Notes under the pieces: model-generated
What the model was told of the DNA's origin: nothing
Databases searched by the model: none
What the model saw: only the letters and a program-made list of their open reading frames with translations
Made by a program: the position numbers and the translations under genes
Part shown: in pieces, positions 6,413 to 16,047 of the stretch
Numbering within the stretch: the stretch's first letter is position 1
Layout: the number at the start of each line of letters is the position of its first letter
Source: Alphaproteobacteria bacterium
Lineage (GTDB): Bacteria; Pseudomonadota; Alphaproteobacteria; CACIAM-22H2
Assembly (NCBI GenBank): GCA_017308135.1
Contig: JAFKFM010000007.1
Span: forward strand, 328,001 to 392,000
Length of the DNA stretch: 64,000 bases
Reading direction: 5' to 3'

Positions 6413-7253
6413 TATGGCCGCCTCGCGCCCGCCTTTCGATCGCGCTGCCTTGTATCGCTGGCTGTTCCTGCTGCTCGTGGCGGGTTTCGTCGCGGTGCCG
6501 TTGATCGCCACGCTGCTCGGCGGCTTCAAGTCGCTGGGCGATTTGCGCACCAATCCCTTCGGTCTGCCGCGCGAATGGGAATGGTCGAATTACGGCGATA
6601 TCCTGCTGTCGAAGCGCTATTGGCAGATGTTGTGGAATTCCTTCGTCATCTCCAGCCTGACGACGATCATCACCCTGATCGTCGCGGCGATGGCGGCCTT
6701 CGTGTTCGCGCATCTGCGCTTCTTCGGCAGCCGCATGCTGCTGAATTATTTCACCATGGGGCTGCTGTTCCCGGCCGCGACCGCGATCCTGCCGCTGTTC
6801 ATCAAAGTGCGCGATCTGGGTCTGCTCGACACCTATTTCGGCGTCGTGCTGCCGCAAGTCGCCTTCGCGCTGGCGATGAGCATCCTGCTATTCCGGCGCT
6901 TCTTCCGCGATCTGCCGCACGAGTTGCTGGAAGCCGCGTTGGTCGACGGCTGTTCCTATCCGCGCTTCTTCCGCTTCGTGACGCTGCCGCTGTCGACGCC
7001 CATTCTGGCGACGGTCGGTACGATCACCTTCGTGCATAGCTGGAACTCTTATCTGCTGCCGCTCGTGATGCTCAACAGCGACGCCATGTATCCCTGGCCG
7101 CTGGGCATCATGGTCTATCAGGGCGAATTCACGGCCGATTGGCATCTGATCCTGGCGTTCATCACGCTGACGATCCTGCCGACCTTCCTGTTGTTCGTTC
7201 TGGCGCAAAAACATATCGTCGCCGGCCTGACGGTCGGCGCGGTCAAAGGCTGA
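6405..7253 (+). CDS. Sugar ABC transporter permease, MalG/UgpE type
   Basis: A 282-residue partner permease with six predicted membrane segments. The EAA loop (EAALVDGCSYPRFFRFVTLPLS) lies in the second half, and the typical C-terminus ends ...GLTVGAVKG. The ATG overlaps the preceding gene by 8 bases, indicating coupled translation; a second in-frame ATG three codons later is possible. It works as the second half of the membrane pore for the sugar bound by the protein at 4205-5467. Confidence 0.94.
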   Translation: MTDMAASRPPFDRAALYRWLFLLLVAGFVAVPLIATLLGGFKSLGDLRTNPFGLPREWEWSNYGDILLSKRYWQMLWNSFVISSLTTIITLIVAAMAAFVFAHLRFFGSRMLLNYFTMGLLFPAATAILPLFIKVRDLGLLDTYFGVVLPQVAFALAMSILLFRRFFRDLPHELLEAALVDGCSYPRFFRFVTLPLSTPILATVGTITFVHSWNSYLLPLVMLNSDAMYPWPLGIMVYQGEFTADWHLILAFITLTILPTFLLFVLAQKHIVAGLTVGAVKG

Positions 7254-7291
7254 ACCGGGCCGGTAGGGCCCCCAACGACGGAGTGCGCGAC

Positions 7292-8389
7292 GTGGAGAAA
7301 GTCGGTATCGGCATCATCGGATGCGGCGTGATCAGTGCGGCCTATATCAAGGCGTCGAAGAATTTCCCGATCCTGGAGATTCGCGGCCTTGCGGATATGC
7401 GCACCGAAGCGTCGGAAGCGCGCGCGGCGGAATTCGGCCTGACGTCGATGCGCATCGACGCGATGCTGAAGCGCGACGATATCGACATCGTGCTGAACCT
7501 GACCGTGCCGCTGGCGCATACCGATGTCGATCTCGCCGTGCTGAAGGCGGGCAAGCATGTCTATTCGGAAAAGCCGCTGGGCGTGAACCTCGTCGAAGCG
7601 CGCAAGGTGATGGATCTCGCCAACGAGAAGGGCTTGCGCGTCGGCTGCGCGCCCGACACGTTTCTGGGCGGCGGGCACCAGACGGCGCGCGCCTTGATCG
7701 ATGGCGGCGCCATCGGCAAGCCGGTCGCAGGCTCGGCCTTCTTCATGTGCCCGGGGCATGAGCGTTGGCACCCCGCGCCGGGCTTCTATTATCTGCGCGG
7801 CGGCGGGCCGATGCTCGATATGGGGCCTTACTACATCACCGATCTCGTCCAGTTGCTGGGGCCGGTGGCGAGCGTGATGGGCTCGACCGCGCGCCCGCGC
7901 AACGAACGCATGATCACGTCGAAGCCCTTGAACGGCACGATGATGCCGGTCGAGGTTTCGACCCATGTCGCGGGCATGCTGGAATTCCGCAGCGGTGCCG
8001 TCGTGTCGATCGCGATGAGCTTCGATGTCCCGAAGCACAAACACACGCCGATTGAAATCTATGGCGATCAGGGCTCCATCTTGGTGCCTGACCCGAACCG
8101 TTTCGGCGGCGAGGTGCAGATCGCCATGACCGGCGGCGAATGGGAAGCCAAACCCTTCACGCATGGCTATACGGACGGCGAGTTCCGCTCCATCGGCCTC
8201 GCCGACATGGCGACCGGCATTCGCAAGAAGCGCGACCATCGCGCCAGCGGCGCACTCGCGTTCCATGTGTTGGAAGTGATGGAGGCGTTCCAGAAATCCG
8301 CCGACGAAGGCAAGCGCATCGAAATCGAAAGCACGGTCGAGCGTCCGGCGGCTCTTGCGCCCGGCCAGTCCGGCGGCGCGGTGGAGTGA
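7292..8389 (+). CDS. Gfo/Idh/MocA family oxidoreductase
   Basis: A 365-residue NAD(P)-dependent oxidoreductase. The Rossmann fold starts GIGIIGCGVIS, and the family signature EKPLG (in YSEKPLGVNLVEARKV) lies near residues 92-96, followed by the C-terminal substrate domain with RGGGPMLDMGPYYITDLVQLLG. Such enzymes oxidise or reduce sugars and inositols. The start is taken as GTG at 7292, with GGAG 8 bases upstream; a GTG at 7283 is an alternative, and the longer frame overlaps the permease. It precedes a ThuA-like gene by 5 bases, a pairing frequent in sugar operons. Substrate unknown. Confidence 0.93.
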   Translation: MEKVGIGIIGCGVISAAYIKASKNFPILEIRGLADMRTEASEARAAEFGLTSMRIDAMLKRDDIDIVLNLTVPLAHTDVDLAVLKAGKHVYSEKPLGVNLVEARKVMDLANEKGLRVGCAPDTFLGGGHQTARALIDGGAIGKPVAGSAFFMCPGHERWHPAPGFYYLRGGGPMLDMGPYYITDLVQLLGPVASVMGSTARPRNERMITSKPLNGTMMPVEVSTHVAGMLEFRSGAVVSIAMSFDVPKHKHTPIEIYGDQGSILVPDPNRFGGEVQIAMTGGEWEAKPFTHGYTDGEFRSIGLADMATGIRKKRDHRASGALAFHVLEVMEAFQKSADEGKRIEIESTVERPAALAPGQSGGAVE

Positions 8390-8394
8390 CGGCG

Positions 8395-9051
8395 ATGACG
8401 AAGAAAAAGCCGACGGCATTGATCGTGTGGGGCGGCTGGCACGGCCACGATCCCGATCTATGCGCCTCGATGTATCGCACCTGGTTGACGGCGGCGGGTT
8501 ACGATGTGCGCGTCGAAACCAAAACTTCCGTCTTCGCCGATCCGGCGATCCACGATTTGTCGTTGATCGTGCCGATCTTCACGATGTCGAAGATCGAACG
8601 GGCGGAGGCGATCAATCTTTGCGCCGCCGTGCAGAACGGTGTCGGCGTCGCCGGCCATCACGGCGGGATGAGCGACGCGTTCCGCGATTCGATCGAATAT
8701 CAATTCATGTGCGGCGGCCAGTGGGTGGCACATCCCGGCAACATCATCGATTTCCGGGTCAATATCGCCAAACCCGACGATCCGGTGATGCAGGGTCTGA
8801 AAGACTTCGATTACCGGTCCGAGCAATATTACATGCATGTCGATCCGAGCATCGAAGTGCTGGCGACGACGACGTTCTCGGGCGAACATGCGCCCTGGGT
8901 CGAAGGAGTCGTGATGCCCGTCGTCTGGAAGAAGCGCTACGGCAAAGGCCGCGTGTTCCATTGCACGCTGGGCCATCGCGCCTATGAATTGGACATTCCG
9001 CAGGTGAAGCAGATTTTGACCCGCGGAATCGAATGGGCGACGCGGAGCTGA
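8395..9051 (+). CDS. ThuA-like domain protein
   Basis: A 218-residue protein of the ThuA family, which has a class I glutamine-amidotransferase-like fold. Visible family features are ALIVWGGWHGHDP at the N-terminus, VGVAGHHGGMSDAFR (the nucleophile-elbow region, lacking the glutaminase Cys) and the late MPVVWKKRYGKGRVFHCTLGH segment, typical of ThuA proteins. ThuA is named from rhizobial trehalose utilisation, where its homologue and the Gfo-type ThuB act on 3-keto-disaccharides. The gene lies 5 bases after a Gfo-type oxidoreductase, matching that thuA/thuB pairing. The precise reaction is inference. Confidence 0.9.
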   Translation: MTKKKPTALIVWGGWHGHDPDLCASMYRTWLTAAGYDVRVETKTSVFADPAIHDLSLIVPIFTMSKIERAEAINLCAAVQNGVGVAGHHGGMSDAFRDSIEYQFMCGGQWVAHPGNIIDFRVNIAKPDDPVMQGLKDFDYRSEQYYMHVDPSIEVLATTTFSGEHAPWVEGVVMPVVWKKRYGKGRVFHCTLGHRAYELDIPQVKQILTRGIEWATRS

Positions 9052-9058
9052 AGTTTCG

Positions 9059-10162
9059 ATGGCGGGTCCGGCTGGCAAGGTAACGCTGGAAGATGTGGCG
9101 GCGGAGGCGGGGGTTTCCCTCGCCACCGCCGACCGCGTTGTCAACAAGCGGCCGGGCGTACGCGACAAGACCGCCGCGCGGGTGAACGAGGCGGTGCTGA
9201 AGCTCGGCTACCGGCCGGATATCGCGGCCGCGCGCTTGGCGCGCAACCGGTCGTTCCGCTTCGCCTTCATCCTGCCGGTGGGCGACAACACCTTCATGTC
9301 GCAATTGACCGAGCAGGTCGGCGTCACCGCCGCGTGGCTGGCGAGCCAACGCGCCTTCATCGACACGCTACATGTCGACGTGTTCGACCCGGACGTGATC
9401 GGGCGCACGCTGGAACGCTTGCCGCGCTATTACGACGGCGTGGCGGTCGTGGCCCTCGACCATCCGCGCGTGCGCGCGGCGATCGACGATTTGACCGCGC
9501 GGGGCACGACGGTCGTCACGCTGGTGTCGGACGTGCCCAGTTCCCGGCGTTTCCATTACGTCGGCATCGACAATCCGGCGGCCGGCCGCACGGCGGGCAC
9601 GCTGATGGGCCGCTTCCTCGGCGGGAAGAAGGGCAAGATCGGCATCGTCGCGGGCTCGCTCGCCTTGCGCGACCATGCCGAACGCTATTTCGGCTTCAAC
9701 CAGGTGATCTCGGGCGAGTTTCCGAAGCTCGAGATTCTGGCGCCCGTCGAAGGGCGCGACGAACGCGCGCGCTCGGAAGCGGTCACCAAGCGCTTGCTCG
9801 CCAAGCACCCCGATCTGGTTGGCATCTATAGCGTCGGGGCGGGCAATCGCGGCATCGCGGCGGCGATCGACGCGGCCGGGCGCGCGTCCGATCTCGTGTG
9901 GATCGCGCACGAATTGACGACCTATACGCGCCGCTTTTTGGTGTTGGGCACGCTCGATGCGGTGATCGGCCAGAATGCGGGCCACGAGGCGCGATCGGCC
10001 GGCCGCGTGCTGCTCGCGCAGTGCTCGGGCGAGCGGATCGTGCCCGATCAAGAGACGATCGGCATCGACATCTTCGTGCGCGGCAATATCCCCGCCGAGC
10101 CCGCTTTCGCGGCCGCCGTCGAAACGCGCGGTCTTGCCGCCGCCGGCTCGGCCGGACGCTAA
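9059..10162 (+). CDS. LacI family transcriptional regulator
   Basis: A 367-residue regulator. The N-terminal LacI helix-turn-helix is at residues 7-58 (VTLEDVAAEAGVSLATADRVVNKRPGVRDKTAARV), followed by the hinge helix and a periplasmic-binding-protein-like sensor domain, including HYVGIDNPAAGRTAG. It starts 7 bases after the ThuA-like gene, so it is probably co-transcribed with the ABC operon it likely controls by binding the imported sugar or a derivative. Its operator may be the CG-centred inverted repeat at 4124-4149. It is slightly longer than typical LacI proteins. Confidence 0.93.
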   Translation: MAGPAGKVTLEDVAAEAGVSLATADRVVNKRPGVRDKTAARVNEAVLKLGYRPDIAAARLARNRSFRFAFILPVGDNTFMSQLTEQVGVTAAWLASQRAFIDTLHVDVFDPDVIGRTLERLPRYYDGVAVVALDHPRVRAAIDDLTARGTTVVTLVSDVPSSRRFHYVGIDNPAAGRTAGTLMGRFLGGKKGKIGIVAGSLALRDHAERYFGFNQVISGEFPKLEILAPVEGRDERARSEAVTKRLLAKHPDLVGIYSVGAGNRGIAAAIDAAGRASDLVWIAHELTTYTRRFLVLGTLDAVIGQNAGHEARSAGRVLLAQCSGERIVPDQETIGIDIFVRGNIPAEPAFAAAVETRGLAAAGSAGR

Positions 10163-10206: not shown

Positions 10207-11166
10207 CTATTCCAGCGTGCGAGCTGCCGGCGAAATCAGATCCTTGGCGATATCGATCTTGGTCTTGAGCATCCCGGCTTCGACCATGAAATCCTGGTCG
10301 GCGCCGAGATTGGCGATATCGCGGTCGGTGACGCGCAGCGCGAAATCGTAATAGGTCATCATCTTGCGCGCGTCCTCCAGATCGATCTTCTGATCGGCGG
10401 CGGCGATCTTCAGCGCTTCCTCCGGATTCGCCTTCATGAAGGCGAGCGCCTTGCGATGTGCCGAAAGATAGGCCGTGACGATCTGCGGATTCTTCTCGAT
10501 CAGATCGCCGCGCACGCCGATGACCGACGTGGGATCAAGCAAGCCGTCGCCCGACGCGAGCAGCTTGCCGTTCGCCTTCTCGACCGCCAACGCGTTGTTG
10601 CCCGCGAGCGTGGCAGCGTCGACCTTGCCCGCCAGCAACGCGGCGCGTGCCGAGGGCAGGTCCATATTGACGTGATCGATATCGGTCAGGCGCAGGCCGT
10701 TTTTGGCGAGGGCGGCCGCGAGCAATTGATGCAGCACCGTGCCCTTGGGGCCGGCGACGGTCTTGCCCTTCAGCGATTTGATGTCGGCCGGACCGTTCGG
10801 CATGGCGAGGATCATGTAGGCCTTGGCGCCCCGGCTATAGGTCGCGACGACTTTGACGTCGATGCCGTTGGCCTTGCCCAAAATCGCCGACGAACCGCCG
10901 AGGACCGAGGCGATATGGATCTCGCCCGCCGCCAGCGCCTGCATTTGCTGGGCGCCCGAGGTGATCTCCGGCGATTCGACCTTAATGCCCATCGGCGCGT
11001 AGGCTTCGTCGAGATAGCCCTTCGCGCGCATCACGATCGACGGCACGTTGAACGGCGAGGCGACATAGGTGACGCGCAGCGTTTCGATCTTCTGTGCCAT
11101 CGCTTGCGGCATGGCCGCCAGCATGGCCGCCGCCGCGATCGCGGCGAAACGGATGGAAATCCTCAT
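10207..11166 (-). CDS. NitT/TauT family ABC transporter substrate-binding protein
   Basis: A 319-residue periplasmic binding protein of the SsuA/TauA/NMT1-like group. A Sec signal (residues 1-24, ending AMAQ) precedes LRVTYVASPFNVPSIVMRAKGYLDE, the usual opening of this fold; later segments include LAAGEIHIASVLGGSSAI and GKTVAGPKGT. These proteins bind sulfonates, nitrate, thiamine precursors or aromatic acids. Its ATG overlaps the stop of the ATPase gene (ATGA) and AAGGAG lies upstream. Here the binding protein is the last gene of its operon. The ligand cannot be told from the sequence. Confidence 0.92.
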   Translation of the reverse strand: MRISIRFAAIAAAAMLAAMPQAMAQKIETLRVTYVASPFNVPSIVMRAKGYLDEAYAPMGIKVESPEITSGAQQMQALAAGEIHIASVLGGSSAILGKANGIDVKVVATYSRGAKAYMILAMPNGPADIKSLKGKTVAGPKGTVLHQLLAAALAKNGLRLTDIDHVNMDLPSARAALLAGKVDAATLAGNNALAVEKANGKLLASGDGLLDPTSVIGVRGDLIEKNPQIVTAYLSAHRKALAFMKANPEEALKIAAADQKIDLEDARKMMTYYDFALRVTDRDIANLGADQDFMVEAGMLKTKIDIAKDLISPAARTLE

Positions 11167-11933
11167 ATCGTTGACTCCTTGGGTGTCCGGGTTTTTCGAG
11201 CCTCGCCGGCTTCGAAACCGGCAATGATGGCGCGCCGCAAACGCACGATTTCTGGATCGGTCGGATCGCGCGGGCGCAAGATGGGATTGGCGAAGCGTTC
11301 CGCGATGACGCCGTTTTCCATCAGGCATATGTCGTCGCCGAGCAGCACCGCTTCCTCGATATCGTGCGTGACGAACACGATGGTCGGGCGGAAGCGCTGC
11401 CACAGCGCCACGAGTTCGCTTTGCAGGCGGCGGCGCGTCATCGCGTCGAGGGCGGCGAAAGGCTCGTCGAGCAACAGCAACTCGGGTTTGGTGACGAGCG
11501 CGCGCGCGAGACCCGCGCGGCTCGCCATGCCGCCCGAAAGCTGATCGGGGCGGGCATTCGCGAAATCGTGCAGTCCGATCACGTCGAGAATATCGGCGAC
11601 GCGCGTGGCGATCTCGGGTTTCGCCGTGCGGCCTTCCAGCGCGAAGCCGACATTGCGCGCGACGGAGAGCCACGGCATCAAACGCGGCTCCTGGAACACA
11701 TAGCCGACGCGCGCGGCGCCGGTGCCGCGCGTGAGCGTGCCGCGCGTCGGCGTTTCGAGGCCCGCGAGCAAACGCAAGGCCGTCGTCTTGCCGCAGCCCG
11801 ACGGGCCGACCAGCACAGTGAAGCTGCCCGGCGGCAAGGCGAGGTCGAAATCGCGCAATGCCGCGACGTCGCGATCCTTCAGCCGATAGGTTTTGGCAAC
11901 GCCGCGGCACTCAAGCATGGGTTTCGGCCCCAT
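11163..11933 (-). CDS. NitT/TauT family ABC transporter ATP-binding protein
   Basis: A 256-residue ABC ATPase with Walker A GPSGCGKTT, a Q-loop in YVFQEPRLMPW, the signature LSGGMASRAGLARAL (M replacing the usual Q), Walker B LLLLDEPF and the switch His in FVTHD. It resembles SsuB/TauB proteins that energise import through the permease encoded just upstream. The gene overlaps the permease end. A start five codons later (MLECRGVAKTY at 11918), giving an 8-base overlap, is equally or more plausible. The stop overlaps the binding-protein start as ATGA. Confidence 0.93.
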   Translation of the reverse strand: MGPKPMLECRGVAKTYRLKDRDVAALRDFDLALPPGSFTVLVGPSGCGKTTALRLLAGLETPTRGTLTRGTGAARVGYVFQEPRLMPWLSVARNVGFALEGRTAKPEIATRVADILDVIGLHDFANARPDQLSGGMASRAGLARALVTKPELLLLDEPFAALDAMTRRRLQSELVALWQRFRPTIVFVTHDIEEAVLLGDDICLMENGVIAERFANPILRPRDPTDPEIVRLRRAIIAGFEAGEARKTRTPKESTI

Positions 11934-12693
11934 GCTCGACCCGGACCCACGGCCACGCGGCGGCGATGGCGCGGCGGAACAGAAAATCGGTGGCGAGACC
12001 CAGCGTGCCGATCACGATCACGCCGACGACCACGATGTCGGTGCGCGCGAGATTCTGCGCGTCCTCGATCATGTAGCCGAGCCCGGCGGACGAGGCGACC
12101 AACTCGGCGCCGACCAGCGCGCGCCAGCCTTGGCCCAGCGCGATGCGCAAGCCGATGACGACAGAGGGCAAGGCGGACGGCAGCACGATGCGGCGCAGGA
12201 TCGCGCCCGGCGACAAGCCGCTGACGCGGCCGACCTCGATCAGTTTCGGGTCGCATTGCGCGATGCCGCCGGTGGTGCCCAAGAAGATCGGGAAGAAACA
12301 CGCCAGCGTGATGATGCCGATCTTCTGCGCTTCGCCGATGCCCAGCCACAAGATCAGCAGCGGGATCATCGCGAGCGGCGGGATCTGACGCAGGAATTCG
12401 AGCGGCGGCTCGACGATCCGGCGCAGCAATGCGACGCGCGCGAAGGCGAAGGCGACGATCAGCGCCAGCGCGGTCGACAGCGCGAAGCCCCAGGCAAGGC
12501 GCACGACGCTGACCCGCACATGTTTGGCGAGCGCGCCTTCGGCGACGAGTTCGAACATCGCGTCGGCGACCAAAGCGGGCGAGGGCAACAAGGCGCGCGA
12601 GACGCCCGTCAACGCCACGCCCGCCGCCCAAATCGCGACGATCAGGATCGCGACCAGCGGCCAGATCGGACCTGCGGCGATTAGACGCTTCAT
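11911..12693 (-). CDS. NitT/TauT family ABC transporter permease
   Basis: A 260-residue inner-membrane permease of the SsuC/TauC type. It has about six hydrophobic segments, LEFLRQIPPLAMIPLLILWLG and the coupling loop KLIEVGRVSGLSPGAILRRIVLPSALP. The start is set at the ATG giving MKRLIAAGPIWPL, matching usual family N-termini; ATGs at 12747 and 12804 are alternatives and none has a clear ribosome binding site. First gene of a permease-ATPase-binding protein operon, divergent from two small unnamed genes across a region containing a Fur-box-like site. Confidence 0.9.
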   Translation of the reverse strand: MKRLIAAGPIWPLVAILIVAIWAAGVALTGVSRALLPSPALVADAMFELVAEGALAKHVRVSVVRLAWGFALSTALALIVAFAFARVALLRRIVEPPLEFLRQIPPLAMIPLLILWLGIGEAQKIGIITLACFFPIFLGTTGGIAQCDPKLIEVGRVSGLSPGAILRRIVLPSALPSVVIGLRIALGQGWRALVGAELVASSAGLGYMIEDAQNLARTDIVVVGVIVIGTLGLATDFLFRRAIAAAWPWVRVEHGAETHA

Positions 12694-12819
12694 CGCGTGG
12701 ACGGCCGGAAGGGTAATGTCACGGACACGATATTTATTTCGATCCATCAATGGGTTGTCGCTATTGATCGGCAGTTGGCGCCGCCACGCGAAAGCGTCTA
12801 ACACGCCAACCTATGTATT

Positions 12820-12838
12820 GCAAATGACTCTCAATATC
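12820..12838. promoter_or_regulatory. Fur-box-like sequence in divergent region
   Basis: The 19 bases GCAAATGACTCTCAATATC match the classical Fur consensus GATAATGATAATCATTATC at 13 of 19 positions, within a local AT-rich patch. It lies 65 bases before the small-protein pair and 127 bases before the NitT-type permease start. Iron control of either side is inference from this match alone. Confidence 0.4.
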
Positions 12839-12902
12839 ACTAGGTGTCAAGCCGTCGCGGCGATCGGCCGCGAACCGAGCAAAGTCCCGAATGTGGTGCC
12901 GC

Positions 12903-13514
12903 ATGAACGCTCCGCTTCCGCTTCTCGTCCTGTCGCATCACGGTGGCGTGCCGGCCCCCTTCGCGCGGTTCGTGCGCGAAGGCCGTCTCGCCGCCGAATG
13001 GGAATGGGACATCACAGCCGCCCGCATCGCCGCCGCGCGCGGCGTGATGCTCACGCTGCATCTCGACCAGATCCGCGCGATGGAATGGCGCGACGGTTTC
13101 GACGCGATGCTGGCACGTGGCGGGCGCGTGCTGCTCAACGGCCATGCCGAGCGGCCGTTTCTGCCGGGCGTCGGGCATTTCGTATTGGGCGGCAAACAAC
13201 GCCAGCATTTGACCTTGTCGGTGCTGGGCGATCATCCGCTCTTCGACGGCGTCGATCGGTTGACGTTCGAAACGCGGCGCGGCGTCGCCGGTTTCTACGG
13301 ACGCGGCCACAACGCGATGCCGGCGGGGGCGCAAGCGTTGACCGGCGTGGGGCCCGACAAGGTGCCGCTCGATTGGGTGTGGCGGCGCGATGGCGGCGGC
13401 GCCGTGCTCTCCCACGCGGGCAACGATCTGTGGACGGGCAGCGAGGATATGACGCTGATCGACCGCTTGCTCGACAACGCGGTGCGCTGGCTCGCGCACG
13501 AAACGGAAATCTGA
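12903..13514 (+). CDS. Unrecognised protein, possible amidotransferase-like (ThuA-like) fold, first of a pair
   Basis: A 203-residue soluble protein with no signal peptide; I cannot name it. It opens with a beta-strand-like LPLLVLSHHGG. It then has MLTLHLDQIRAMEWRDGF, a GGRVLLNGHAERPFLPGV segment, GDHPLFDGV, GVAGFYGRGHN and GGGAVLSHAGNDLW. The order of segments resembles ThuA/class I amidotransferase-like domains but no catalytic Cys-His-Glu set is evident. The next gene, 2 bases on, shows the same succession of motifs (GGTLVAMGE, IPGV, HPALAGI, HGWY, GGSLIVTS), so the two look like diverged paralogues that could form a heterodimer. Divergent from a NitT-type transporter. Confidence 0.8.
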   Translation: MNAPLPLLVLSHHGGVPAPFARFVREGRLAAEWEWDITAARIAAARGVMLTLHLDQIRAMEWRDGFDAMLARGGRVLLNGHAERPFLPGVGHFVLGGKQRQHLTLSVLGDHPLFDGVDRLTFETRRGVAGFYGRGHNAMPAGAQALTGVGPDKVPLDWVWRRDGGGAVLSHAGNDLWTGSEDMTLIDRLLDNAVRWLAHETEI

Positions 13515-13516
13515 TC

Positions 13517-14113
13517 ATGCTCGCCACGCTGCAACCCGGTGCTTCCTACCAGATCGAAGCGCTCGAAGGGCCGCGCTACGGCGCGTTCTTCAAGCGCCGC
13601 ATCCGGCCGGAAGCATTAAATGCCGACGCGCTGGATGGCGTGCGCGTGTTGTTCGTCCCGTGCCGCACGCATCCCCAACGCCTCGCCAAACATTGGCCGC
13701 TTTTCGCCGAATATCTGCGCAACGGCGGCACGCTGGTGGCGATGGGCGAGACGTTCCAGAACGAATGGATCCCCGGTGTTTCGTTCCATCCGGAGGAAAC
13801 GAATTTCTGGTGGTGGCTCGAGCCCGGTGCCGATCTCGGCGTCGCGCGCACCGGCGTCGCGCATCCGGCCCTTGCCGGCATCGGCAAGGCGGATGTCACG
13901 TGGCATCTGCATGGCTGGTACGATCCGCCCCAGGGTGCCGAAACGCTGATCGTCGATCGCGACGGCAAGGCGCTGATGTACGAGGATCGCGTCAGTTTCG
14001 GCGGCAGCTTGATCGTGACCAGCCTCGATCCCAGCTATCACCACGGCTCGCATTTCATGCCGGCGACGACGTGCTTCCTCGACAAATTCCTGCCGAATCT
14101 CGCCGCACTTTAG
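13517..14113 (+). CDS. Unrecognised protein, possible amidotransferase-like fold, second of a pair
   Basis: A 198-residue soluble protein. Segments are RVLFVPCRTHPQRLAKHW (residues about 42-60, with Cys where an amidotransferase-like strand ends), YLRNGGTLVAMGE, NEWIPGVSFHPEETNFWWW, HPALAGI, WHLHGWYDPPQGAETL, and GGSLIVTSLDPSYHHGSHFMPAT near the C-terminus. Several His residues and a Trp-rich stretch stand out. It begins 2 bases after the preceding gene and is similar to it in motif order. The start is the first ATG after that stop. The stop overlaps the convergent epimerase gene by 4 bases. Function unknown; partnership with the neighbouring transporter is inference. Confidence 0.8.
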   Translation: MLATLQPGASYQIEALEGPRYGAFFKRRIRPEALNADALDGVRVLFVPCRTHPQRLAKHWPLFAEYLRNGGTLVAMGETFQNEWIPGVSFHPEETNFWWWLEPGADLGVARTGVAHPALAGIGKADVTWHLHGWYDPPQGAETLIVDRDGKALMYEDRVSFGGSLIVTSLDPSYHHGSHFMPATTCFLDKFLPNLAAL

Positions 14114-14982
14114 GAAAGCCCGATATCCAGGCGATAGGTCGCGATCGCGCGCGGAGCGAGAATGCGCGTGCCCGGCCGCGTTGCCATGTCGCCATCGGCA
14201 CCGTCTTGTTCGGCTAAGCCCTGCCACGGCTCGATGCACAGATAGGGTGCGCCCGGCTTGGTCCAGATGCCGAGCTGCGGGGAGTCGGGAAACGCCACGT
14301 CGATTCCCGTTTGGCCTTCGATGCCGAACCAGACGCGGCGCGAATTCAACGTTTCGAAATGGAAGGCGCCTTCGACGAACATGTCGTCTTGCGGCTTCAG
14401 GCGGCGTCCGGCGACGGGCGTGTCGAAGCGTTGCTGGTGCAGCAAGCCGGTGATCTGGCTGGCGCGGCGCACCGGCGCGGTCTCTTCTTTCTCGAACAGG
14501 CAGACATATTGGCCGCGCGTCGCGGGATCGAGCGGCCAGATAAAGGCGGGGTGATAGCCGAACGCGAAGGGGAAGGGCTTGGCGTCGCGGTTTTCGATCG
14601 ATGCGGTGGTGTGGAGCTTGCCGGCGCGCGCGGCGAATTCCAGGCGCAGCGCGAAGGCGAAGGGGAAGCTCGCGCGCGTCGCCGCATCGTCGGTCGTTTC
14701 GAACACGACGCGCTCGGCATCTCGCGCGATGACGGCGAACGCGCGATCGCGCGCGAAACCGTGCGGATTCATCGGATAGGACCGGCCGTCGATTCGAACC
14801 TTGCCGTCCGGGGATTTACCCACGACCGGGAATAGAAGGGGCGCCGTGCTCGCCCACCAGCGCGCGTCGGGCGACCAAACCAAGTCACGCCCGTTGATGG
14901 CCAAAGCGGCCAGCTCCGCGCCCGTCGGGGCGATGCGGGCGACGACGCCTCCGCCGGATATTTCGATGGAATTTTCGATCAT
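14110..14982 (-). CDS. Aldose 1-epimerase family protein (LacX-like)
   Basis: A 290-residue galactose-mutarotase-fold protein. Family features are PLLFPVVGK, the His in NPHGFARD, FPFAFGYHPAF and late PYLCIEPWQG with the catalytic Glu. Such enzymes interconvert alpha and beta sugar anomers in the cytosol. AGGAG lies 9 bases before the ATG. The gene is divergent from a second aldose-1-epimerase-like gene across 150 bases that include a good promoter and a candidate GntR operator, suggesting both serve the same sugar-acid locus. Its stop overlaps the convergent gene at 13517-14113. Confidence 0.9.
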   Translation of the reverse strand: MIENSIEISGGGVVARIAPTGAELAALAINGRDLVWSPDARWWASTAPLLFPVVGKSPDGKVRIDGRSYPMNPHGFARDRAFAVIARDAERVVFETTDDAATRASFPFAFALRLEFAARAGKLHTTASIENRDAKPFPFAFGYHPAFIWPLDPATRGQYVCLFEKEETAPVRRASQITGLLHQQRFDTPVAGRRLKPQDDMFVEGAFHFETLNSRRVWFGIEGQTGIDVAFPDSPQLGIWTKPGAPYLCIEPWQGLAEQDGADGDMATRPGTRILAPRAIATYRLDIGLS

Positions 14983-15061
14983 TAACGCGACTCCTGGGGT
15001 CCGGCTTGCAGTGTCGCACAGGGTGTTACGATTCTTCCGCCGGGGAACGTCGATCTGCGCG

Positions 15062-15090
15062 TTGACAGGCGCAATCGGGCACCGTAAAGA
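15062..15090 (+). promoter_or_regulatory. Sigma-70-like promoter for the epimerase/ABC/dehydratase operon
   Basis: TTGACA (15062-15067) and TAAAGA (15085-15090) are separated by 17 bases. The predicted start site near 15097 falls just before the operator-like palindrome at 15101 and the gene starting at 15133. Confidence 0.5.
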
Positions 15091-15100
15091 AGACGCCAAC

Positions 15101-15110
15101 TGAAATATCA
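15101..15110. promoter_or_regulatory. Candidate GntR operator, near-palindrome TGAAATATCA
   Basis: Matches at 9 of 10 bases the perfect palindrome TGATATATCA found at 25341-25350 before the GntR-family gene of this locus. It lies at about +4 to +13 of the predicted transcript, where a bound repressor would block initiation. Confidence 0.5.
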
Positions 15111-15132
15111 AATCTCAATGGGGAGGCGCCGC

Positions 15133-16047
15133 TTGTCGGCAAACTTGGCGGAACATGCGGTAAATACGTCGGGCGAGGCCCATTTGGCCGCCGGCGATTT
15201 GCGCGTGACCGTCGCCCCCGCAGCCGGCGGGCGGATCGCGAAATTCTGGCGCGAAACCCCGAAAGGGCAAGTTCATATTTTGCAGCCGATGGGGCCGGCC
15301 GCGTTCGACCCGTTCAACTGGCCCAAGGCCGGCTGCTATCCGCTGGTGCCGTTTTCCAACCGCGTTCGCGACGGGCGCTTCGTGTTCGACGGTCGCGAAC
15401 GCCGCCTGCCGCCGCATCCCGGCACGTCGGATGCGTTGCACGGCTTCACGCAGCGCCGGGCTTGGACGGTCGCGGCGAAAACGGCGTCGTCGCTGACGAT
15501 GACCCATATCCACACGCCCGACGAATGGGATTGGGCGTTCACGACGTCGCAACTGCTCGACCTGACCGGCGACGCGCTGACCGTCACGCTGACGGTCAAG
15601 AATCTGTCCGACGCGCCGATGCCGGTGGGTTTCGGCCTGCATCCGTATTTCGCGATCGCCTTGGGCGATCGCATCGCGTTCGACGCCGCCTGGAACTGGG
15701 CGATCGACGACGGCTTCATCGCGACCAAGCGCGACGCCAAGATCACGCATTACGACGCGCCGCAGAATACTGTCGGCCGCACGGATTATCTGTCGGGCTG
15801 GTCGCGCAAGGCGACGATCGCGCGCCAAGACGGCACGACGATCCGCATGAGCGCCAGCGACGCGCTCGATCATTTCGTTTTCCACGTGCCGGAGGGCGGG
15901 GCCTATCTGTGCCTCGAACCCGTCAGCCACGTGGCGGATGCGTTCAATCTCGCCCCCGCGGGACATGCGGGGACGGGATTGCAAGTGCTGGCACCGGGTG
16001 CGTCGGTCGAAGCGTCGGTGCGGATGGAGATCGAGACGCAGAACTAA
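15133..16047 (+). CDS. Aldose 1-epimerase family protein
   Basis: A 304-residue mutarotase-like protein: GGRIAKFWRE, a sugar-contact region YPLVPFSNRVRDGRF, a first His in LHGFTQRRAW, a second in FGLHPYF and the late Glu in YLCLEPVSH. TTG is chosen as start because GGGGAGG lies 6 bases before it; the ATG at 15118 would place that ribosome binding site inside the gene and has none of its own. It leads an operon continuing with an oligosaccharide/peptide-type ABC transporter and two dehydratases, so it probably acts on the imported sugar. The fold family also includes hexose-6-phosphate epimerases. Confidence 0.88.
   Translation: MSANLAEHAVNTSGEAHLAAGDLRVTVAPAAGGRIAKFWRETPKGQVHILQPMGPAAFDPFNWPKAGCYPLVPFSNRVRDGRFVFDGRERRLPPHPGTSDALHGFTQRRAWTVAAKTASSLTMTHIHTPDEWDWAFTTSQLLDLTGDALTVTLTVKNLSDAPMPVGFGLHPYFAIALGDRIAFDAAWNWAIDDGFIATKRDAKITHYDAPQNTVGRTDYLSGWSRKATIARQDGTTIRMSASDALDHFVFHVPEGGAYLCLEPVSHVADAFNLAPAGHAGTGLQVLAPGASVEASVRMEIETQN

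Follow-up and report, generated by a model that had tools for sequence, protein, structure and literature searches.

A conserved pair of paralogous proteins, predicted to share a ThuA/amidotransferase-like fold, is linked to several classes of ABC importer

The window analysed here, a stretch of 64,000 nucleotides from an alphaproteobacterial contig, carries two adjacent genes on the forward strand, A (12903..13514, 203 amino acids) and B (13517..14113, 198 amino acids). Both open reading frames lie where the first-pass annotation had placed them, on the same strand and with a gap of 2 bases between them. The A protein contains the motifs LDQ, NGH, HP-x-F-x-G, GVAGFYGRG and H-x-G-N-D, and the B protein contains PCRT, GG-x-x-x-x-x-GE, N-x-WWW, W-H-x-H-G and LDPxYHHGSHFMPAT. 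Facing the pair, as had also been noted, is an operon of NitT type on the reverse strand, which encodes a periplasmic substrate-binding protein of the NitT/SsuA type (10207..11166; NMT1, and TIGR01728 SsuA_fam above cut-off), an ATPase (11163..11933; orthologous cluster 7) and a permease (11911..12804; BPD_transp_1, SsuC-like). The operon is divergent from A–B and about 100 bases away, and the intergenic region (12805..12902) is probably a shared promoter region. An Rfam search of the window found nothing. Just 3' of B are two aldose 1-epimerase-like genes in the opposite orientation (14110-16047). On the other side of the NitT operon, a Gfo/Idh/MocA-like oxidoreductase gene, a true ThuA gene (8395-9051) and a LacI-type regulator gene (together 7139-10162) look like an ordinary sugar-utilisation cluster that is unrelated to A–B.

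Neither A nor B of the window reached any family in Pfam or NCBIfam (0 Pfam families), and the gathering threshold of ThuA (PF06283) was not reached by either. The ThuA gene at 8395-9051, which matches its Pfam family with an E of 4e-42, clearly belongs to a family separate from A and B. Searches of PDB sequences with the single proteins and with A and B profiles gave nothing convincing. Weak matches of the B homologues were mainly to DUF4159, ThuA and DUF4350, the ThuA matches occurring in 5 of 48 homologues with a best E of 4.7e-4. Annotated A and B homologues in plasmid records are labelled hypothetical, and no description of the pair was found in the literature and protein-family libraries searched. 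The earlier statement that the two proteins belong to no described family therefore agrees with Pfam, NCBIfam and the literature, and the counter-evidence that had been named, a clear match to a known enzyme family, was absent for A and B in Pfam and NCBIfam.

The two proteins had been read as diverged paralogous subunits on the strength of an ordered set of shared motifs: GGRVLLNGH, LPGV, HPLFDGV, GFY and GGGAV in A, and GGTLVAMGE, IPGV, HPALAGI, GWY and GGSLI in B. Plain BLASTP of A against B gave no match, and the shared motifs would thus have been weak evidence of kinship by themselves. Profile–profile comparison (hhalign; 47 A and 48 B homologues) aligned the two families over their full length, with a probability of 97.7 and an E of 1.4e-12 across 188 columns, and an archaeal A protein matched the B profile with an E of 7e-20, the best of the cross-family matches. 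Because of these two results we regard the paralogy as real and, from sequence comparison, A and B as conserved, diverged sisters. All of the motifs are present in the order described, with one correspondence that did not hold: GFY of A and GWY of B fall in different columns of the profile alignment, while the remaining motifs align.

A ThuA/amidotransferase-like fold had been proposed for both proteins. The AlphaFold2 model of B (mean pLDDT 91.4, pTM 0.90) gave 41 PDB matches in Foldseek at E <= 1e-3, most of them to domains of class I glutamine amidotransferases, of ThuA-like proteins and of related glycosidases, including the ThuA-like structures 1t0b and 4pxy and the glutaminase domains of PabA and GMPS. 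B is accordingly predicted to have the alpha/beta, flavodoxin-like fold of the class I GATase-like superfamily. A GATase1/ThuA-like fold may be assigned to A through its homology to B and through the A half of a natural A–B fusion (L021:9278-10576), which was modelled from an alignment of fusions and A singles in which both halves were covered by five aligned sequences only (pLDDT 86.9, pTM 0.87); Foldseek of this model again matched GATase-like domains. A combined alignment of fusions, A singles and B singles was dropped for modelling, as it placed A rows on the B half. Since the pTM is high, the model suggests that the two halves of the fusion are packed in a defined way. The proposed fold is thus borne out for B by its own model and for A by the fused model and homology.

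Active members of the class I GATase superfamily have a cysteine at the turn following the GG strand. At this elbow, the position of which in A and B was set by sequence and strand order and not by coordinates, GH is invariant in A (NGH in the window) and GE, GS or GD is found in B (MGE in the window). C49 of B lies on the strand preceding the elbow and is Ser or Asp in some members. The elbow Cys, with His and Glu, of an active class I glutamine amidotransferase was not found in the A and B alignments, and the position of the catalytic cysteine appears to be replaced in both proteins. The first-pass annotation had seen no obvious catalytic triad in A or B, and the missing elbow cysteine supports this at the sequence level. 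For A–B, the most fitting description is that of a new family within the GATase1-like superfamily.

A survey of a collection of GTDB species genomes yielded 45 loci with a B relative, and in all 45 A lies directly upstream of B (one A is truncated). Singletons in unrelated contexts, the finding that was to speak against a functional pair, were not seen among these loci. A and B are fused into one protein in five of the 45 (L017, L019, L021, L027 and L052), and a reversed fusion, with the B half followed by the A half, occurs directly after a FecCD-type ATPase in three plasmid records, one from Aliivibrio and two from Rhizobium (L060:2876-8606, L061:7971-9269 and L063:7962-9251). The evolutionary distances of A and B are correlated, with r 0.86 and a Mantel p of 0.0005. 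When two proteins have been fused independently in either order, this is classically taken as a sign that they form a physical complex. Because the pairing is invariable and fusions exist in both orders, the comparison points to A–B as an obligate two-domain unit, and an A–B heterodimer is strongly implied by the two fusion orders together with the confident fused model. Some loci carry more than one copy. In Rhizobium etli L060 the B–A fusion is accompanied by unfused A and B genes, which are divergent from the same importer operon. A 434-amino-acid two-domain protein (L033:11709-13010), both halves of which favour the B profile over the A profile, is a diverged copy that adjoins a separate A–B pair, HupE and NicO. 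Two Devosia loci (L018:1866-5965 and L026:7540-11115) have two tandem A–B pairs followed by F, a further gene described below; the tandem pairs come from different branches of the tree, one among Nik-type and one among FecCD-type relatives.

An ABC importer adjoins the A–B pair in 41 of the 45 loci. The importer is of the FecCD type (siderophore/B12 class) in 20 loci, of the Nik/Opp type in 16, with looser linkage in two of them (L018 and L032), and of the NitT type in five. At one further locus (L048) an importer ATPase lies at the contig edge, and at L022, L030 and L041 no importer is close by on the stretch read. Every annotated plasmid or archaeal A–B locus read has the pair next to an ABC importer: FecCD (L060, L061, L063, L065, L067, L069 and L074), Nik (L075 and Paenibacillus L064), NitT (Chelatococcus L066) and a fourth class, of Fe3+ type, in the haloarchaeon Natribaculum (L062). 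The partners are therefore four unrelated importer classes, FecCD, Nik/Opp, NitT and Fe3+-type, and the linkage spans genera, phyla and domains (Pseudomonadota, Bacillota and Halobacteria). A–B is often encoded right after the importer ATPase gene, and nearly all pairs are co-directional with the importer. The divergent placement emphasised in the first-pass annotation is true of the window and otherwise confined to its close relatives (L009-L011) and the split pair of one Rhizobium locus (R. etli L060).

The type of partner changes at least six times on the B tree and five times on the A tree. NitT-linked pairs comprise the window clade, L034, L044 and Chelatococcus L066, and the grouping of all of them was rejected for both B (p 0.00014) and A (p 0.00006). 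The NitT link of the window clade is nested within FecCD-linked pairs; it is derived, and NitT is the rarer partner. The expected conserved linkage to NitT-type genes thus holds across genera, but NitT is a minority partner among the four classes of importer, and the earlier emphasis on it was too narrow. Between the window and Chelatococcus, the NitT binding proteins are 72% identical and the B proteins 38% identical, and therefore one importer subfamily carries two A–B lineages. This binding-protein subfamily was present in three of 289 alphaproteobacterial genomes, with A–B adjacent in all three, and on plasmids it occurs with A–B (Chelatococcus) or with F (E. coli, Azospirillum). Rhizobium ACO-34A is an exception, in which the importer subfamily has neither A–B nor F on the stretch read. 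On the E. coli plasmid pDETEC45 (L072:8959-12436; also in ED1a and others) a NitT-type importer of the window's binding-protein subfamily (40% identity) has an F-like protein on each side and no A–B pair; the 175-amino-acid protein of this plasmid was considered as an A–B remnant and rejected, as it is the second F-like protein. Since an importer adjoins A–B in 41 of 45 loci and the link survives at least five to six changes of partner, the proposal that the pair is concerned with uptake is well supported.

F, a protein of about 170 amino acids, is encoded downstream of B in many loci and was matched in 29; no match was found in the genome of the window. FmdE (PF02663) was matched weakly, below threshold, by 8 of 25 F members (best E 0.0037). 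The FHGHxC motif of FmdE is represented in F by YHGxGF, in which the second His and the Cys are absent and most of the metal ligands are gone, and F was not assigned to FmdE on these weak matches and degenerate motif. The FmdE core binds Zn/Ni (PMC2954224). F is also part of a plasmid cluster in which a LysR gene, a FecCD importer, F and the C–P lyase core genes PhnGHIJKL follow one another (L068:8041-16835, L070:292-5817, L071:5032-9939, L073 and L074:9728-18501). The cluster is carried by rhizobial plasmids; Proteus and Morganella plasmids have at least part of it. The stretch has no annotated phnCDE, phnM or phnP, its PhnJ keeps the C-terminal cysteines, and the same kind of F homologue is present on a Klebsiella plasmid and other Proteus plasmids.

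Several neighbours bear on what is imported. HupE_UreJ_2 genes are found in six Nik-type loci (L032, L033, L047, L049, L050 and L075), and the L049 protein scores 120 bits in Pfam, where the cut-off is 24.5. HupE/UreJ proteins are described in PMC2667541 as transporters of nickel/cobalt. A NicO/RcnA gene, above cut-off, is present in L033 as well. For the Opp-type parts of the importers, the best NCBIfam matches include NikA and NikB, with NikA scores that stay below the equivalog cut-offs (264 bits at best against 600, and 189 against 393). TonB receptors occur in several FecCD loci, a B12-receptor-like TonB gene lies behind a cobalamin riboswitch in L020, and TonB-ExbB-ExbD follows A–B in L048. 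Another cobalamin riboswitch, beside an A–B locus (L013:5994-6223), was rejected as evidence, because the gene downstream of it encodes a cobalamin-independent methionine synthase. HupE and NicO are limited to the Nik/Opp-type subset of loci, and the window has a NitT-type partner and no metal-specific neighbour. Taken together, HupE/UreJ, NicO, the TonB receptors, TonB-ExbBD and the FmdE-like F favour the import of a metal complex, most likely one of nickel or cobalt.

We propose that A and B arose by duplication as the two subunits of one cytoplasmic protein, and that A–B works as a heterodimer dedicated to an ABC importer as its partner on the inside of the cell. This importer would take up a small solute in complexed form, most probably a chelated metal of the nickel/cobalt type or its carrier, and the A–B dimer, often with F, would receive this solute on the cytoplasmic side and bind, release or process it. 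A–B is probably a pseudo-enzyme heterodimer, and several classes of ABC importer would have it as their partner on the inside. That it is a cytoplasmic, Cys-less GATase/ThuA-like heterodimer partnering a metal-complex importer has, in our judgement, about an even chance of being right, and metal-complex uptake, the leading hypothesis, stands at roughly that same midpoint. In a more specific version, A–B would act with F in the cytoplasm as a portable acceptor that unloads metal complexes and has been re-paired repeatedly with four structurally unrelated importer classes because all four deliver the same kind of ligand; we put this forward tentatively, as somewhat short of an even chance.

An organic substrate, for example a phosphonate, is also possible, in which case the importers would supply the cell with this compound or a different source of carbon or phosphorus, and A–B would be an enzyme that modifies it, in line with the uptake-plus-modification system suggested in the first-pass annotation. 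The conserved B motifs N-x-WWW, WHxHG and HHGSHFMPAT are rich in His and Trp and resemble an active or ligand site, but the elbow cysteine of the superfamily is not conserved in A or B. Importers of the NitT class usually take up organic anions or pyrimidines, and the NitT–A–B genes of Chelatococcus adjoin pca genes. On several plasmids the FecCD-F importer genes run into PhnGHIJKL, with A–B upstream in Labrenzia and Martelella, and these C–P lyase neighbours make a phosphonate, or some other organic ligand, conceivable; however, C–P lyase genes were not found among the 45 genome loci, and the window's genome gave no PhnJ match. The Nik-type, HupE, NicO, B12-receptor and TonB neighbours suit metals better, and we consider the import and modification of an organic compound rather unlikely. 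Less probable still is that A–B is a regulator or sensor that performs no chemistry: it would bind a metabolite or the incoming solute and gate the transporter's ATPase or expression. The superfamily nucleophile seems to be lost, the pair moves between unrelated importers, and its genes belong to the importer operon, where they often follow the ATPase gene directly, all of which such a role would accommodate. The unrelated importer classes nevertheless have no obvious docking surface in common, and polar motifs as strongly conserved as these speak for the handling of a ligand more than for pure docking. Since these genomes are rich in ABC genes and BLASTP shows no similarity of A to B, the pair could be imagined as two unrelated small hypothetical proteins linked to abundant transporter genes by chance. 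This is very improbable and already contradicted by the survey, given the 45/45 pairing, the fusions in both orders, the profile homology, the importers in 41 of 45 loci, the repeated change of partner and the reciprocal linkage.

If the proposal of an inside partner for metal-complex importers is right, a protein pair that has been without a family would be a marker for ABC importers of unknown substrate and a common handle on those annotated just as 'iron', 'nickel/peptide' or 'NitT-type'. It would indicate that uptake has a missing cytoplasmic step, in which nickel or cobalt is perhaps released from the complex that was imported. If the portable acceptor version holds, this would be an undescribed step in trace-metal uptake, with a pseudo-amidotransferase heterodimer for unloading. 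The pair would also be a well-supported added case of amidotransferase-fold proteins turned into partners that are not amidotransferases.

Among known systems, the SsuABC/NitT importers are of the same class as the window's transporter (SsuA_fam above cut-off). SsuABC goes with sulfonate monooxygenase genes and has no A–B pair, unlike the window's importer. The NikABCDE and HupE/UreJ systems resemble the Nik-type subset of A–B loci in combining a Nik-type importer with HupE/UreJ, but the binding-protein scores here are below the NikA cut-offs and the nickel systems described have no A–B pair (PMC2667541). FmdE resembles F in a weak sequence match, and its genes mostly adjoin metal-ion transporters (PMC2954224), although F is without the second His and the Cys of FHGHxC. 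The ThuA family (PF06283; 1t0b, 4pxy) is close to B in predicted structure (Foldseek E 2e-5 to 1e-4, TMq about 0.58), and both are single domains of about 200 amino acids with no conserved elbow cysteine, but A and B of the window have no Pfam match at all. To our knowledge, ThuA proteins are not obligate heteromeric pairs carrying the motifs of B. PabA, the GMP synthase glutaminase, PuuD and lin1909 (3fij) have the same fold as A and B by Foldseek. Whereas class I glutamine amidotransferases have the elbow Cys and a synthase partner, A and B have neither, and instead form what appears to be an obligate, importer-linked pair.
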